DNA from: a virus
Direction: 5' to 3' (one strand)
IMG/VR virus record: IMGVR_UViG_3300021478_000051
Span: 1-45,068 of that record
DNA: 45,068 nucleotides
The position numbers were made by a program, and so were the translations under genes. Below are positions 14,509 to 31,199 of the stretch, one piece after another. How positions within the stretch are numbered: the first letter of the stretch is position 1; every line of letters starts with the position of its first letter. The notes beneath the pieces are model-generated. The model was not told where the DNA came from. It did no database searches and saw only the letters and a program-made list of their open reading frames with translations.

Positions 14509-15458
14509 TTTGAGCCCCTTTCAATGAGGCGGGATCGATCCCGCCCGGCGGCATTCCTGAGATTTTCAGAGTGCCGCCGGCCGGGGTCGAAGTGTCGTAA
14601 GTGGTAGCCGGGAGATCGCCCTCCCGCCCTCAAAACCGCAGCGCAGGGACTCGTGTCCCGTCTTGCTGCGGTCCCTCGCCGCCTATCATCCGGTGCTTGC
14701 CGCCTCTCGTTGCCGTCCTAACTCAGTTAGGATACGACATAAACGCGGCTTGCTTATGGCGGTGACCGTGAACAGAAAGTGGACAGAACATTAAATTCGC
14801 GTGATCGGCTGAAACACTTTGTAACAATTCGTGATCAAGGCTGCTATTTCTCCAATGCAATCAACAAGCGAAGAAATGAATCCAGGCTCACCTGTCACTT
14901 GACTCGCCTTTTTCGGGCGCCATCCTACCTCGCGCGGGGCTCCGGTTGCCCGACTAAGCGGCACTCTGGAACGCTGGGATAGACCGGATGCCGCGCGACA
15001 AGCGCGCGGCCGGTATAGGCAAGAGCAGGCAAAGGCTTGCGATGATAGCTGACTTGCAGCAAGTGGCATCGGTGAAAACACCCTTCCGAACCGGCCAGGA
15101 TTGCGGTTCTGGATAGGTTCGCTCTAGGCATTGCTTGTGGCACAAGGATATTCTACCACTACATGAGGTAGGTTTAAGTGATCGGCTTAAGCCTTTGTTT
15201 CTGTTGGATTTCGTTCCAAATGTTCCGTAATAAAGGTTATGCGAACGGATTTTCTGTTCCTACGGTGTATCCCTTTGTTCTCTCAGGGTTTCTCGGTTCG
15301 TTGACCTTTTGTTCTGCCGGACAGCTGTTCACGGTCTGTTCTGTGCGCGCGAGGGTTCGCGCAGCCCGATGGGGCGCAGAGGAGCGAATGCGGCCGCCCC
15401 ACGTATCCCGCCCCCCAGAAAAAATTGCAGAAGTAAAGCTGAGATGTCATATTGGTTT
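14509..15458. promoter_or_regulatory. Non-coding regulatory stretch rich in inverted repeats
   Basis: I see no convincing gene in these 950 bp. It holds a perfect 18-bp palindrome (14528-14545), a 9-bp stem (14545-14553 / 14572-14580), a 7-bp stem (14636-14642 / 14665-14671), an operator-like dyad TCCTAACTCAGTTAGGA (14716-14732), and a 10-bp direct repeat GTGATCGGCT (about 14801 and 15178). One GTTC-N7-GTTC LexA-like box lies at 15327-15341. Presumably it contains promoters for the leftward operon, and perhaps an origin. AT content and codon-like structure differ from the flanking genes. Confidence 0.5.
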
Positions 15459-15568
15459 TGCCTCGTGCTGTGGGGTGGCCGGCGTAGGGACGCCATCGAG
15501 GTTGGGCCGGAACCGGCACTCTTTCAGACCTTACCCAACCAAGGGACCTGAACGCTCAGCACGAGGCA
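15459..15568 (+). ncRNA. Candidate structured RNA with closing stem and two arms
   Basis: A perfect 12-bp closing stem (15459-15470 / 15557-15568) encloses a hairpin GGCGT-AGGG-ACGCC (15481-15494) and a 7-bp stem GGTTGGG/CCCAACC (15500-15506 / 15534-15540) containing GCCGGAACCGGC. A promoter-like TTGCAG (15425-15430), 17-bp spacer, CATATT (15448-15453) would start transcription almost exactly at the closing stem. No known RNA family matched by eye. A DNA cruciform or origin structure is the main alternative. Confidence 0.4.
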
Positions 15569-15759
15569 CCAACCCCCCTCCCAAGAAAAAATCTGTGGTC
15601 ACTCGCGGTTGACAGCTCGGGCTTTTGGTGAGAGCCTTGCCCGGCCTGGGGGTTTGTTCCTTTCCTCCCAGGCGGATGGTACCGGAAGCACCAGGCTGGC
15701 AGGCTCCACTTGCGTAGCCATAGCGGTGGGGACTGCCAGCCGAAGCTTTGAGGGTTCTA
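15569..15759 (+). promoter_or_regulatory. Double-hairpin leader of the small membrane peptide
   Basis: A TTGACA lies at 15609-15614 without a convincing -10. Two stems follow: GCCTGGG/CCCAGGC (15644-15650 / 15667-15673) and the perfect 9-bp GGCTGGCAG/CTGCCAGCC (15694-15702 / 15733-15741), the latter extended inside by CTCCAC/GTGGGG. The SD GAGGG (15750-15754) comes 8 bp after the second stem. A translational or attenuation control element is plausible. Confidence 0.4.
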
Positions 15760-15864
15760 ATGAAAGCCGTAGTGTTGTTCACCCTTTGGGCTGTTATCGT
15801 CGTCGTCACGCTGTGGATTTTTTTCTCGTTCCTCCAGGTCTCCGGGCGGCTTCTTTGGGGATAG
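15760..15864 (+). CDS. 34-residue membrane peptide
   Basis: ATG 15760 has SD GAGGG 5 bp upstream. The product is nearly all one transmembrane helix (VVLFTLWAVIVVVTLWIFFSFL) followed by QVSGRLLWG. It overlaps the next ORF by 10 bp. Size and layout resemble small phage or toxin-like membrane peptides; no evidence of an antitoxin was found. Confidence 0.45.
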   Translation: MKAVVLFTLWAVIVVVTLWIFFSFLQVSGRLLWG

Positions 15865-16154
15865 AACAACCAACCAGGCGTGGATTTATCACTGGGCTCG
15901 GCAGCTGCTTCATTGCGGCGCCGGCGATCGTGCGCGCTTCCAACCTGATGACGCTGCACGGTATTCGGATCGTGTTCGATGATCTGGTGCCGGATGAAAC
16001 CGCTTACATCATCAAGGCTATGAACGACGATCTCTATGGTGATCTCGTCGCCGTCACTCGCCGCGCCTTCCTCCCGAAGCTTTTTGTGCAGCTTTATGAG
16101 GCGCAGCCGATGCTGCAAATTCTTTCCGATAGGCGATTGACGGTCCCGGCCTGA
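15855..16154 (+). CDS. Tat-like signal fused to a capsid-protein N-terminal fragment
   Basis: This gene encodes 99 aa from TTG 15855 (start uncertain, weak SD). Residues 5-27 look like a Tat signal (TRRGFITGL, then a hydrophobic stretch and VRA). Residues 61-90 align with residues 15-47 of the major capsid protein at 30192: both contain TRRAFLPK followed by F, QL and P, with more than half of about 30 positions identical. At DNA level the match is only partial, so it derives from a diverged capsid gene rather than recent duplication. An internal ATG (16020) would give a 44-aa capsid-only peptide. It may be a decayed remnant or a functional interference peptide. Confidence 0.5.
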   Translation: MGIEQPTRRGFITGLGSCFIAAPAIVRASNLMTLHGIRIVFDDLVPDETAYIIKAMNDDLYGDLVAVTRRAFLPKLFVQLYEAQPMLQILSDRRLTVPA

Positions 16155-16289
16155 GCTGTCATATAACTGTCCGTCTACTCTCCAGCCACCACAGCCCCCC
16201 AGCCCCATGGCAGGGAGTAGACAGGACGGGCAGTCTGAGGTGTCGACTCCCTCGTGGGGACTGCCCGTCCTTCCAACTCCAACCCTTTG
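16137..16289 (+). promoter_or_regulatory. Putative promoter and double-hairpin leader of the long rightward operon
   Basis: TTGACG (16137-16142) and TATAAC (16162-16167) are separated by 19 bp, a wide but usable sigma70 spacing. The leader then folds into two stems: GTCTACTC/GAGTAGAC (16173-16180 / 16215-16222, part of a longer imperfect repeat) and a perfect 13-bp stem AGGACGGGCAGTC/GACTGCCCGTCCT (16223-16235 / 16259-16271). They abut directly. No plus-strand promoter candidate this good is seen again until after the portal gene. Confidence 0.45.
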
Positions 16290-16493
16290 ATGGTGGAGGC
16301 GCCGGTGGCCGGCACATCAAAAAAGACGCCCAATTGGATCAAGGAGCTGCGCGCCGAGAATACGCGCCTGCGCGGCGCCCTGCACATCGCTCGCCAGTGG
16401 ATGCCGATCAAACCGGTCGGTGAATTGGCCAAGCACGAGGTCGAGATCGTCGATAAGGCGCTGGGCTACCAGCAGAAGGCCGAGGCCGGCTGA
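16290..16493 (+). CDS. Small coiled protein, first gene of the long rightward operon
   Basis: This gene encodes 67 aa. ATG 16290 lies after the leader hairpins; an upstream GTG (16254) falls inside the stem. The core (WIKELRAENTRLRGALHIARQWM) is a short coiled coil typical of small phage proteins placed before DUF1064 genes. It ends in a TGATG overlap with the next gene. Function unknown. Confidence 0.55.
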   Translation: MVEAPVAGTSKKTPNWIKELRAENTRLRGALHIARQWMPIKPVGELAKHEVEIVDKALGYQQKAEAG

Positions 16494-16840
16494 TGTGGAC
16501 CGTTGCGCCGCCATTCCCAACCAAGTCATCAAAATACAAGAACCGCAGGGTCAAGCTTGACGGCTACACCTTCGACAGTCAGGCCGAGGCCAACCGCTAT
16601 GCCGAGCTGAAGCTGCTGGAGCGCGCCGGCAAGATTACCAGGCTCCTCCTCCAGCCACTCTATTCGTTCCAGATCAACAACAAGGTGATCTTCACCTACT
16701 TTGCCGATTTCCAGTACATGAACGAGCATGGCAACATGGTCATCGAGGACGTGAAGGGCGTGCGCACGCCGCTCTACAAACTGAAAAAGAAGATCATCGA
16801 AGCCCGCTACGATATCAAGATCACGGAGGTGGACGCATGA
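16493..16840 (+). CDS. DUF1064 family protein (probable nuclease fold)
   Basis: This gene encodes 115 aa. SKYKNRRVKLDGYTFDSQAEANRYAELKLLERAGKI is the signature N-terminus of DUF1064 phage proteins, followed by LQPLYSF, YFADFQY, and an IEDVKG motif resembling the E-x-K of PD-(D/E)XK nucleases. Family members are suggested to be small endonucleases, possibly resolving or nicking DNA; this is not demonstrated here. TGATG coupling with the upstream gene. Confidence 0.7.
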   Translation: MWTVAPPFPTKSSKYKNRRVKLDGYTFDSQAEANRYAELKLLERAGKITRLLLQPLYSFQINNKVIFTYFADFQYMNEHGNMVIEDVKGVRTPLYKLKKKIIEARYDIKITEVDA

Positions 16841-18085: not shown

Positions 18086-18361
18086 ATGACCCGGAGAGGA
18101 CATAAACGTAACCCAGATGGCGTCGGTGGGCGTCTTGATTGTAGCCAGGTCAGGTTTGAAGGTTCTGGTGGCGGTAACTTTGGAGAGAAGCTTGCCGATC
18201 GCGTGCCGGAAGTCCGTAAGCTATTGCGCGCCGACATGACCCTCGTCCAGATCGCCGCCGCTCTGGAGGTGAGGGAGACTACCCTGCGCAAATTCATCAA
18301 GCGGCGCAACCTCTGCGATCTCAAGCAGCGCAACTTCATACGGACTCACGGCGTGAGATGA
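18086..18361 (+). CDS. HTH DNA-binding protein
   Basis: This gene encodes 91 aa from ATG 18086. Residues about 47-80 form a resolvase/GcrA-type HTH (VRKLLRADMTLVQIAAALEVRETTLRKFIKRRNL). The N-terminus is Gly and Arg-rich. It overlaps the oxygenase gene by 4 bp, so it is co-expressed and might regulate this late operon. Confidence 0.6.
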   Translation: MTRRGHKRNPDGVGGRLDCSQVRFEGSGGGNFGEKLADRVPEVRKLLRADMTLVQIAAALEVRETTLRKFIKRRNLCDLKQRNFIRTHGVR

Positions 18362-19380
18362 AGCCAACCGTCATTGATGATTTTCTGCCGGCGGGGGACT
18401 ATGCCAGGCTGCGCGACTACGTGCTGTCGCAGCCGATGGCTTATGGTTCAAAGTCGAACAACCAGACCGACCCGCACGGTCACTGGAGCTGGAAGCCGGT
18501 GCATGACCAGCGGCAGAACCTGGCTGACCTTACCGCAACTCTGCCGCCGTTGCCGCGCGAGATGTGGCACAAAGTGAATCAGAAAATCTGGGAGCTGAAC
18601 AGCGCGGCCATCGTCCGTTGCTATGCCAACGGCTACACCTACGGTACCGATGGCTATTTCCACACCGACAGCCAGCGCGCCGACGAGCACACCATCATCA
18701 TCTACATCTGCAAAGATTGGCTCGGTGATTGGGCCGGCGAAACGGTTTTCTGGGACGGCCATGACGAATACACGTCGGTCTTGCCGCGCGCCAACCGGGC
18801 CGTCATCGCGCCCTCAAATATGTCGCATTGCGCTCGCGCCGTTTCCCGCAAGTGCAACGTGCTGCGCACCACCTTCATGTACAAAACTCGGCCTAAGCGC
18901 AGCGCCGATTTTGAGCGACTGAGTGCTTTCCTTGTGGAACACGGCGGCCTCAAACAAGAACATACCGCAGGTACGCTACACGACCACCTGGTCCGCGTGT
19001 TCCAGCTATTGGAAGATAAATTTAAGGACATGAAGGCAAAGGAATTGTGCTTTGCCGGCGGCCTGCACTCGATCTACGGCACCAATGTATACCAGCGCCA
19101 ACTGTTGAAGCCGGACGCTATTGGCCGAAGCGTTGTCTCAAGCTACTTCGGGCAATCGGCAGAGGCGCTGGCTTTTATGTTCTCGTTGCTCGATCGGCCG
19201 GCGACCTTGGAGAAACCCGATCTGCATGACAGCCGGCTCAAGCTGCGTTACGATCATATGGTCGAAGTCAGCCCGCAGATGCTGCGCCAGCTGCAATTGA
19301 TCGAATGCGCTAATCTGGCCGATCAAAACTCCCTGGCCAAGTGGCCCAACCTCGCAAAGATATGGAGCGAAGCAAAATGA
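18358..19380 (+). CDS. 2OG-Fe(II) oxygenase fused to a DUF6817 (HD-like) domain
   Basis: This gene encodes 340 aa. Residues 1-177 form a prolyl-4-hydroxylase-type dioxygenase: YFHTD gives His102 and Asp104, SHCARAV gives His157, and VLRTTFMYK supplies Arg170 for 2-oxoglutarate. Residues 200-325 match DUF6817, an HD-like helical domain (TLHDHLVRVFQLLED with His208/His210, LCFAGGLHSIYGTNVYQ with His237). The oxygenase would hydroxylate a protein or other substrate; the HD-like half could bind a second metal. It is embedded in a lysis and packaging operon with 4-bp overlaps on both sides. Confidence 0.8.
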   Translation: MKPTVIDDFLPAGDYARLRDYVLSQPMAYGSKSNNQTDPHGHWSWKPVHDQRQNLADLTATLPPLPREMWHKVNQKIWELNSAAIVRCYANGYTYGTDGYFHTDSQRADEHTIIIYICKDWLGDWAGETVFWDGHDEYTSVLPRANRAVIAPSNMSHCARAVSRKCNVLRTTFMYKTRPKRSADFERLSAFLVEHGGLKQEHTAGTLHDHLVRVFQLLEDKFKDMKAKELCFAGGLHSIYGTNVYQRQLLKPDAIGRSVVSSYFGQSAEALAFMFSLLDRPATLEKPDLHDSRLKLRYDHMVEVSPQMLRQLQLIECANLADQNSLAKWPNLAKIWSEAK

Positions 19381-29688: not shown

Positions 29689-30192
29689 ATGGCACCAAAT
29701 CAGCAAACTCTCATGGAATTAGGCGCTCTGGCGATGAAAATTGCCGGTCACCCGAAGACGCGCCGGCAATTTCTCGGCCAGGTGAAGCAGGTCGACCCCA
29801 ATTACCGCGTTCCGGCCGATGTTCAGTTCGAGGAATTCAAGGAACAGCAGGCGCGTGAGCGCGAGGAAGAAAAAATCCGTGCAAAGGCCGAGCGCGACGA
29901 GCGCCAGCGTGCCAACCAACGCCAAAAACTGATCGATTCCGGCCGCTACACCGAGGAGCAGGTGGGCGAGATCGAGGAAAAGGTCATGAAAAAGTTTGGC
30001 CTCAACGATTTTGAGGCTGGAGCGAAGCTCTACGCGGCTGATTTCAAGCCGCAAAACCCCACCAACGCCGGCAACCAACGCCATGGGAGAATCTGGGAAT
30101 TCCCCAATTTGCCTGGTTTGCTGGAGAATCCAGACAAAGCGGCGAATGATGCTGCCTACGCCGTGATCGATGAACTTAGAGGAGCAAGGTAA
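29689..30192 (+). CDS. Scaffolding protein
   Basis: This gene encodes 167 aa from ATG 29689. Residues 45-105 form a long, highly charged helix (FEEFKEQQAREREEEKIRAK, AERDERQRANQRQK), the typical signature of phage scaffold proteins, and it directly precedes the capsid gene with TAATG coupling. It would template prohead assembly and then leave. Identification is from composition and position rather than family motifs. Confidence 0.65.
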   Translation: MAPNQQTLMELGALAMKIAGHPKTRRQFLGQVKQVDPNYRVPADVQFEEFKEQQAREREEEKIRAKAERDERQRANQRQKLIDSGRYTEEQVGEIEEKVMKKFGLNDFEAGAKLYAADFKPQNPTNAGNQRHGRIWEFPNLPGLLENPDKAANDAAYAVIDELRGAR

Positions 30193-31199
30193 TGCCCCAA
30201 TTCGGCCAAGGCATCATTCCGGCACAGGGTGCGATAGCTGCTGAGCTGGCGGCAATCACCCGGCGAGCATTCCTTCCCAAGGTTTTTATTCAACTTTGGA
30301 AGTCCACACCGTGGATGGCGGCGATGCTATCGCACGCTCAGGTCGCCTCTGGCGGCCTCTCGCCCATCACCGTGCCGCTGCAAGGCAACCCGATGGTGAC
30401 GATCCAGAACGTCGGCTATGACGGATCGTTCAACCAACCCGGCGTGACCCCTGGCCTCCAGAACGCCGAGTTCAACCTCAAGGGCTACCTCACCGCCATC
30501 CCCTTCCTTGGGATGGAAGGTCTGGTCCAGTTAGACTACTCGGTGGTGCCGCTGATCGAAGCGCGCATGAACGACGCCACTAACGTCACGCTCGATCGCT
30601 TCTCCACCGATATGTACAACAACATCGTCAACACCCAATCCATGATCGGATTGCCAGCGGCGATCGATGACGGCACCTTTGCCGCCGCCTACGGCGGCAT
30701 CTCGCGCCCGAACAACACTTTCTGGAAATCAACCTACGTCCACAACGGCGCTCCCACCACGCCGACGCGCAACCTCATGCTCCAGTACATCAGCCAGGTC
30801 ACGAAGGTAACGGGAGAAATCCCGAAAATGGGACTCATGGGCTTCGGCACCTGGACAAACCTCGCTCAGGACTTCACGCCAAATGAGCGATATGTTGTCA
30901 CTCCGAACCAGCCATTTGGCGAGGGCAAGGTTGAAGCGCTCTTTAGAGCTTTGGATGTTGCCGGCGTCCCATTCTATCCAGACCCGTATGCCCCCGAGGG
31001 GACTCTTTATCTCCTCAACACGGACTACCTGTCTCTCTACGTCCATGAGCGTGCCTCCTTCTATTTCACTGGCTTCGAATCAACGCTGGCCAATGGCCAG
31101 TTTGGCTACATCGGCGCGCTGCTGACGCTTCTAGAAATGGTGGACGTGAAGTGCAAGGCCCATGGCAAGTTCGACAACCTCGCGTTCCTGAACATCTAA
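30192..31199 (+). CDS. Major capsid protein (HK97-fold type)
   Basis: This gene encodes 335 aa with SD GAGGAG 7 bp upstream. The N-terminal arm (ELAAITRRAFLPKVFIQLWKSTPW), the LSPITVPLQGNPMVTIQNVGYDG strand region, an E-loop-like central part and the C-terminal ASFYFTGFESTLANGQFGYIGALLTLLEMV fit a podoviral HK97-fold coat protein of usual size. A diverged copy of its N-terminal arm occurs at 16035-16130. It forms the icosahedral shell together with scaffold and portal. Confidence 0.8.
   Translation: MPQFGQGIIPAQGAIAAELAAITRRAFLPKVFIQLWKSTPWMAAMLSHAQVASGGLSPITVPLQGNPMVTIQNVGYDGSFNQPGVTPGLQNAEFNLKGYLTAIPFLGMEGLVQLDYSVVPLIEARMNDATNVTLDRFSTDMYNNIVNTQSMIGLPAAIDDGTFAAAYGGISRPNNTFWKSTYVHNGAPTTPTRNLMLQYISQVTKVTGEIPKMGLMGFGTWTNLAQDFTPNERYVVTPNQPFGEGKVEALFRALDVAGVPFYPDPYAPEGTLYLLNTDYLSLYVHERASFYFTGFESTLANGQFGYIGALLTLLEMVDVKCKAHGKFDNLAFLNI

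Follow-up and report, generated by a model that had tools for sequence, protein, structure and literature searches.

Small genes of uncultured phages join a putative Tat-type leader to pieces of virion proteins

Why would a phage carry, apart from its capsid gene, a short gene in which what looks like an export signal is joined to what looks like a piece of a capsid protein? The question is raised by an IMG/VR virus record of 45,068 nucleotides (IMGVR_UViG_3300021478_000051), the whole of which is referred to here as the window. An initial annotation had placed an open reading frame (ORF) at positions 15855-16154 and had described it as a Tat-like signal fused to a diverged capsid N-arm. An ORF is indeed present at these coordinates, and its protein begins with LGIEQPTRRGFITGLGSCFIAAPAIVRASNLM and closes with MNDDLYGDLVAVTRRAFLPKLFVQLYEAQPMLQILSDRRLTVPA. 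The features of the window that bear on the question are the following:

15760..15864, + strand: 34-aa hydrophobic, one-helix-like ORF, the TAG stop of which overlaps the TTG start of the next ORF
15855..16154, + strand: Tat-leader and capsid-arm ORF, 99 aa, TTG start, stop ending at 16154
15876..15938, + strand: Tat-type leader core RRGFITGLGSCFIAAPAIVRA, residues 8-28, aligned with 10 relatives and with 135 leaders; sub-threshold for TIGR01409
16029..16127, + strand: capsid N-arm-like segment, residues 59-91, from protein matches and the alignment of relatives
30192..31199, + strand: the phage's own major capsid protein (MCP), 335 aa, phrog_9953 at E 2.9e-24
30231..30323, + strand: N-arm stretch of this MCP (its residues 14-44) that the Tat-leader ORF resembles, from the within-record search

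The claimed homology of the C-terminal part to a capsid N-arm is statistically supported, both inside this record and by MCP genes outside it. When the window protein was searched against this record only, it found itself and one other place, positions 30231-30323 of the MCP gene, which residues 59-89 match with 45% identity and 26 bits (E 4.6e-7). In a blast comparison with all ORFs of 63 contigs, the tail matched its own MCP at E 7.5e-6, with 50% identity over 28 residues. Among 50,697 phage records, residues 52-90 gave two matches (E 6e-4 and 1e-3), and both fall in a gene annotated as major capsid protein. Because the within-record and the phage-record matches both point to the MCP, the resemblance is one of protein-level homology. 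What the ORF carries is a capsid piece (about 31 residues of about 330) and not a capsid protein. The DNA identity between tail and capsid gene is low, as had been noticed at the outset: over the 28 matched codons it amounts to 58%, with a dN of 0.42 and a dS of 2.19, which is saturated. That the tail arose separately from the present capsid gene, which had also been thought likely, fits the scores, in that the capsid of contig G062 reaches 44.7 bits with the window tail and the own capsid 39.3 bits; the own contig holds rank 8.

The leader core RRGFITGLGSCFIAAPAIVRA presents the features of a Tat substrate, namely a twin-arginine motif, a hydrophobic stretch and an AxA-like site. For the window protein alone, the model TIGR01409 (TAT_signal_seq) covers residues 7-17 at E 0.044 and 14.2 bits, its cut-off of 16.7 bits not being reached, and the model NF033394 (capsid_maj_Podo, positions 3-36) covers residues 62-95 at E 0.15, also below its cut-off. 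More generally, scans of the window ORF with Pfam, PHROGs and NCBIfam gave sub-threshold matches or none, with no capsid PHROG or Pfam match, and a Tab- or Tai-like family was absent among these matches. Family models are weak singly for one protein, and it is the comparison with relatives that makes both halves secure; the Tat-like signal, too, is supported by its conservation in these relatives. An AlphaFold model of the window protein, built from an 11-row alignment, was poor (pLDDT 54, pTM 0.23). A shortened spine helix in the window tail (IIKAMNDDLYGDL) looked good by eye but was rejected, as 64 of 500 shuffles reach the match.

Relatives of the window phage were drawn from 36 IMG/VR records with a close capsid relative, and a direct search of viral contigs for close relatives of the ORF gave 10 pattern matches, none of which was confirmed. 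The window protein matches 35 of these 36 records, mostly via the capsid arm only, and a separate leader ORF was found in five of them (G013, G016, G020, G022, and G026). Nine of the 36 records are of at least 40 kb; the leader ORF is present in four (G013, G016, G020, and G022) and absent in the other five. G013 and G020 keep the leader plus the arm, joined by a linker that does not align with that of the window, and in G013 the ATG start overlaps the previous stop as ATGA. The protein of G022 (MSTRRGFLRTLLAGVAAAVVRPF... then ...LITRKAFVPRLFVQIWQE) has lost the APAIVRA-SLMPV part of the leader but retains RR, a hydrophobic stretch, ITRKAFVPRLFVQIW and the arm; it does not fit the leader regular expression and lies outside the counts of 67 and 135 given below. 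In G016 and G026 the leader is joined to another tail, without the arm. Across 11 aligned members, RR, APAIVR, and R.AF.P are kept while the linkers do not align, and no arm-bearing copy (window, G013, G020, and G022) is broken. The initial annotation had left room for a relic of recombination, a reading that is unsupported because the two-part protein is intact in related phages with non-aligning linkers. Nor are the relatives decaying pseudogenes, a finding that it had named as counting against its proposal: the ORFs of G013, G020, and G022 are intact and have retained the arm.

Judged by its leader, the window ORF belongs to a large family of uncultured phages, in which a conserved stretch, RRxFxxGLxxxxAAPAIVRAxSLMPV, is followed by variable tails. 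A search of viral contigs with a three-member alignment confirmed 68 loci (231 stretches matched the pattern), and the DNA pattern APAIVR[AV]-x-S/T-[LI]-M-P-[VI] occurs in 116 stretches of the viral collection, 80 of them listed. In 84,980 bacterial and archaeal species genomes, the APAIVR DNA pattern was found in seven stretches, at least two of which lie beside phage-like genes. Among the loci of the alignment search, the serine, methionine and proline that follow APAIVR are conserved in 61/69, 66/69, and 54/69 cases, respectively, where the search patterns excluded SLMPV and the confirming alignment step used a member with a similar stretch. In a set of 135 leaders (136 before a near-duplicate filter, with identical tails and tails of fewer than 30 residues excluded beforehand), RR, APAI, R, and M are invariant, RR or RK, APA, R, and M being part of the collecting pattern itself. 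At E ≤ 1, the Tat models TIGR02811 and TIGR01409 match 42 (best E 0.005) and 25 (best E 7.8e-4) of these 135 leaders. With the Tat substrates described by these models the family leader has in common the RR motif, the hydrophobic stretch and the AxA-like end; unlike them, the family conserves SLMPV after the presumed cleavage site and has tails made of virion-protein pieces. Given the established properties of Tat signals, real Tat targeting of the leader proteins is probable.

The same ORF was also met in separate contigs: L040, L041, and L349 are alike in the part printed, as are the members of the pairs L110/L111, L095/L096, and L120/L121, and the ORFs of L083 and L084 are one base apart. 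A 35-residue leader consensus gave no match in phage and plasmid records, where its short length or the low-complexity filter may hide some; L264 gave only two weak Arthrobacter phage matches in annotated phage records (E 0.2 and 1); and no family member was found in such records by a search that is weak for so short a motif. This absence may be the reason why the family is undescribed. In the passages of the literature that were searched, no description of proteins composed of a leader and a virion fragment was found, and the architecture appears to be new. One leader ORF with an unmatched tail (L382, 377-601) lies in the chromosome of Bradyrhizobium erythrophlei GAS478, a record not titled as a metagenome bin; its surroundings have no match to the phage ORFs compared.

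What, then, are the tails? They were compared with the ORFs of their own contigs (63 contigs, 2.04 Mb, window included, with a few long contigs lacking their last piece), and the controls were 907 other small ORFs trimmed to a similar length. A match at E < 0.01 to an ORF of 250 or more residues in the same contig was obtained for 18 of 67 tails vs. 7 of 907 controls (Fisher p 4e-17), and at least three of the seven control matches are 100% matches at contig ends. Among 135 different tails, 45 match large phage ORFs at E < 0.01, and the targets are nearly all MCPs, in addition to portal and tail collar proteins. The other 90 are unmatched at this threshold among the ORFs compared, many contigs having no capsid gene, and some of the unmatched tails may be unrelated to virion proteins. 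Ten target proteins were checked: eight are major head proteins (phrog_334 twice, phrog_212 twice, phrog_371, phrog_9953, phrog_138, and phrog_283) and the remaining two are portal or head-tail adaptor proteins (phrog_156 and phrog_332).

Similarly, a PHROG scan of the 135 tails (E ≤ 0.01) yielded 18 families, and the 16 that are named are all virion proteins (head, adaptor, tail, collar, fibre, and other virion proteins), although for several tail-fibre and collar PHROGs the matches come from two tails each, probably one and the same pair of collar tails. By comparison, 135 control tails reached 50 families, and the 25 of these that are listed are led by eight HNH endonuclease families and include two tail-fibre and two endonuclease VII families. 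Pfam returned the tail collar domain (1e-13 and 8.9e-17) and, in a scan of the whole set, the T4-type Gp23 (8.6e-13); the tail of L364 has a match in L269, to its phrog_138 capsid (1e-10). We consider it very probable, on these protein comparisons, that the architecture is one of a leader plus a virion-protein piece and that it amounts to virion mimicry.

Two groups of tails deserve separate mention. The tails of L359 (561-731), L285 (1236-1469), L307 (4594-4767), and L122 (4073-4321) have in common the motif CxxCxxxxGMCxxTGGP(L/I), for which no virion protein match was obtained here and which is possibly a zinc-binding module. Those of L292, L295, L308, and L125 have in common the N-arm of another capsid subtype (TLRNRxGxIA..NNALxxRL-like), and match the 348-aa major head protein of L308.

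It was at first supposed that every tail is a capsid N-arm. This was given up because other tails match C-termini, the insertion domain of the P22 type, the spine helix, portals, and tail collars. The capsid-arm origin first proposed holds for the window ORF but is too restricted as a general account, the appended pieces coming from several capsid types and parts, from portal and from tail proteins. One tail of contig G040 corresponds to capsid residues 5-68, and its other tail to residues 376-413 followed by residues 103-130; the tail of G079 corresponds to residues 267-354 of a P22-type capsid, that of G096 to residues 274-304 of a 305-residue capsid ORF, that of G074 to residues 290-342 of 352, and that of G066 to a portal piece. 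In L264 and L351 (SU10-type), as well as in L097 and L282 (P22-type), the spine helix stands before the N-arm, which reverses the capsid order, and each of these four helix matches is reached by 0 of 500 shuffles. By the same test, the helix match was not significant in L302 (127/500), L039 (267/500), and L081 (289/500). As aligned here, the copied pieces are the N-arm, the spine helix, the insertion domain or the C-terminus, sometimes permuted; these names, taken from capsid structures, are applied by position and presumably designate the equivalent parts. The tails of L373 (4138-4338) and L091 (4336-4578) seem to be mosaics in which a capsid piece is combined with a portal piece (YGRSPAMD-) in a single short protein.

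When capsids were sorted into six groups, the capsid class of the tail was that of the phage's own capsid in 18 of 18 testable tails, a tail being testable if it matches a sorted capsid and its contig has a sorted capsid (the contigs of six more tails have none); within this count, one tail occurs twice (in G070 and in G071), and two tails each come from G040 and G076. Yet among the 18 tails that match their own contig, that contig gave the best score in only 7 cases. Because the class always agrees but the own contig is best in so few cases, the tails are, as far as such scores can tell, no fresh copies; they keep to the structural class and are either old or passed among phages within it. 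In 21 pairs of a tail and its own protein (E ≤ 0.05), amino acid identity ranges from 32 to 77% and dN from 0.22 to 0.78, and dS is mostly above 1 or saturated. The persistence of such identity at mostly saturated dS argues that the segment has long been kept as protein. Between sister tails, the dN/dS ratios for which dS could be estimated are 0.26, 0.28 (a pair of 32 codons), 0.35, 0.35, 0.71, and 0.72, which suggests constraint on the tails over short stretches; selection is thereby moderately shown. In two trees of arm segments (20 and 19 rows, the second with a long-branch row labelled MCP_L364), 6 and 5 label changes are required for the Tat rows, for shuffled means of 6.5 and 6.6, which is compatible with one origin as well as with many.

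The genes themselves are packed into operons. In 97 of 130 loci, the Tat-leader gene starts between -12 and +13 relative to the point where an upstream ORF ends, vs. 279 of 1464 random ATGs; upstream ORFs of at least 45 codons were considered, 133 of 135 loci had a stop codon, and only the 130 with an ATG or GTG start were counted, the start in the window being TTG. A downstream ORF begins close to the stop in 73 of 130 loci, a count without control, and the gene of L282, a typical case, overlaps its neighbors at both its start (GGAATGACC) and its end (GCCTAATGACC). Neighboring ORFs were scanned in 109 of 110 mechanically chosen cases, some of them not genes (an antisense ORF of the window was left out); those with PHROG matches include the terminase large subunit (phrog_2, 6/109), terminase small subunit, portal, capsid, decoration, and fibre proteins among the 25 of 79 families listed. 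Since the neighbors match terminase, portal, capsid, and fibre PHROGs, many members of the family sit among late genes. The window copy is not among late genes, and its nearest recognized downstream neighbor is a DUF1064/phrog_190 resolvase-like gene.

A broad reading, which is plausible without being probable, is that of a phage-wide system of export-tagged virion mimics. In at least six capsid families, rearranged capsid, portal, and tail pieces of the phage's own class would be kept by selection and would act as decoys or assembly poisons against rival phages or host sensors, away from the cytoplasm in which such conflicts usually take place. In the explanation that we prefer, the leader would direct its small protein to the inner membrane and there to the Tat translocon; the virion segment would reproduce a subunit contact incompletely (N-arm, spine helix, C-terminus, portal or collar piece) and would bind, at a guess, the partner of the full virion protein; and the fragment, in our leading guess, would cap or misdirect the assembly of a competitor of the same structural class in one cell. 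The export tag could then shorten the stay of the fragment among the phage's own subunits. Simple interference meets a self-poisoning problem, because the tails match the own capsid class. A single contact-blocking mechanism is further disfavored by the different capsid parts that different tails carry, and Tat export, which would remove the fragment from the site of capsid assembly in the cytoplasm, also counts against interference. Further points against the preferred explanation are the 90 unmatched tails, the tails without the arm in G016 and G026, and the lack of a leader ORF in five of the nine relatives of at least 40 kb. The whole chain, from a working phage gene through Tat targeting and segment binding to competition between phages of the same class, can be put forward only tentatively, and assembly interference as the purpose of the tagged pieces, which the initial annotation had also suggested, is a guess by analogy that we regard as doubtful.

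Fv1 and enJSRV Gag, endogenous restriction factors derived from gag, are structural-protein copies that act against related viruses; they are animal host genes, whereas the family described here is carried by phages and has an export-type leader. The Tab protein of a Pseudomonas prophage blocks tail assembly, is constitutively expressed and has a counter-protein; it resembles the role proposed here in being a phage-encoded protein that acts on virion assembly, but no Tat leader or copied capsid segment is described in the sections of that source on which we draw, and the present family is known from genes alone (PMC10884400). Similarly, the Tai family, which is carried by phages and satellites, blocks tail assembly and thus resembles the proposed role in its late-stage interference with virion assembly, while the sections used do not describe a leader-plus-virion-fragment architecture (PMC11364771). 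Within these limits, Tab and Tai are precedents, by analogy, for late-stage assembly interference.

Other explanations have to be weighed against the preferred one. The first, which we find unlikely, is that the leader is a mobile start of small genes that captures in-frame sequence, mainly from late genes that are abundant or nearby, and that the tails decay slowly and have no shared job. This agrees with a leader that is far better conserved than the tails (leaders having been collected by part of that motif), with tails that can be mosaic or permuted, with the 90 unmatched tails of 135, and with late genes being at hand, as the PHROG-matching neighbors are often terminase, portal, capsid, and fibre genes. 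It accords poorly with the amino acid identity that matched pieces keep at mostly saturated dS, with a helix-before-arm order that recurs in two capsid types, with named matches to virion proteins only and none to DNA-metabolism genes, and with the packing of the genes, whose starts and stops overlap their neighbors. Even if the tails were captured scraps, they would clearly illustrate, in nature, how new genes arise time and again from virion genes behind a common leader.

A rather unlikely alternative is a decoy for host sensors, in which a non-activating virion fragment would occupy the binding site of a sensor and keep the defence off. Capsid, portal or tail proteins are the triggers of several bacterial defences. 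The named tail families, all 16 of them virion proteins, and the variety of segments are what varied sensor epitopes would demand, and concordance with the own class is what a self-protecting phage would need. The known sensors of virion proteins, however, act in the cytoplasm, where an exported decoy would not be expected; no host defence gene was linked to these phages in this analysis; and none of the named tail families is a terminase, a protein known to trigger Avs defences. The sources, in the parts used here, report that CapRel is triggered by the major capsid protein (PMC9712102), that a TIR system senses capsids, and that DSR2 senses the tail tube and is countered by DSAD1. Since a capsid protein can serve as ligand for CapRel SJ46, a fragment of a capsid could also act on a host sensor; CapRel is, however, the host sensor itself, and the window protein would at most be a decoy ligand (PMC9712102, as far as the sections used go).

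It is quite improbable that the protein is an assembly helper, i.e., a virion piece anchored at the inner membrane, where it would dock the procapsid, portal or tail of its own phage or nucleate their formation. Own-class concordance, the position of several genes beside terminase and portal genes, and a hydrophobic leader adjoining a contact segment are in line with such a role. A Tat signal, however, would put the C-terminal segment on the periplasmic side, different phages use different capsid parts, and the gene seems dispensable, there being no such ORF in five of the nine close relatives of at least 40 kb. Finally, chance resemblance, an assembly chimera or an annotation artefact, for which it can be said that the window protein alone is below each family-model cut-off, was already disfavored and is very nearly negligible in view of the own-contig matches (18/67 vs. 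7/907), the recurrence of the same ORF in separate contigs, and the intact fused ORF in relatives.

If the reading of exported virion mimics is true, many uncultured phages carry small export-signal proteins that copy parts of their own kind of particle; these would represent a new type of protein in conflicts between phages or between phage and host, recognizable by the leader motif, and each member would mark a virion contact or epitope that matters. The leader motif also provides a handle on many short phage ORFs that are usually left hypothetical.

The surroundings of the window ORF have a few features of their own. Two strong RNA hairpins flank it, at 15694-15741 (z -4.7) and 16214-16280 (z -4.2); none of 200 shuffles was as stable for either, and GTGGGGACTGCC is found in the 3' arm of each. 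An Rfam scan of positions 14700-16600 gave chance-level matches only, with no family for these hairpins. Inside a long stretch without recognized genes, positions 15459-15568 contain a 12-nt perfect inverted repeat (TGCCTCGTGCTG / CAGCACGAGGCA) with a spacing of 86 nt and a fold z of -2.3. Further downstream, the ORF at 18358-19380 encodes a 2OG-Fe(II) oxygenase-like part fused to DUF6817 (Pfam 3.1e-15 for the latter), and its PHROG label of DNA endonuclease V looks doubtful.
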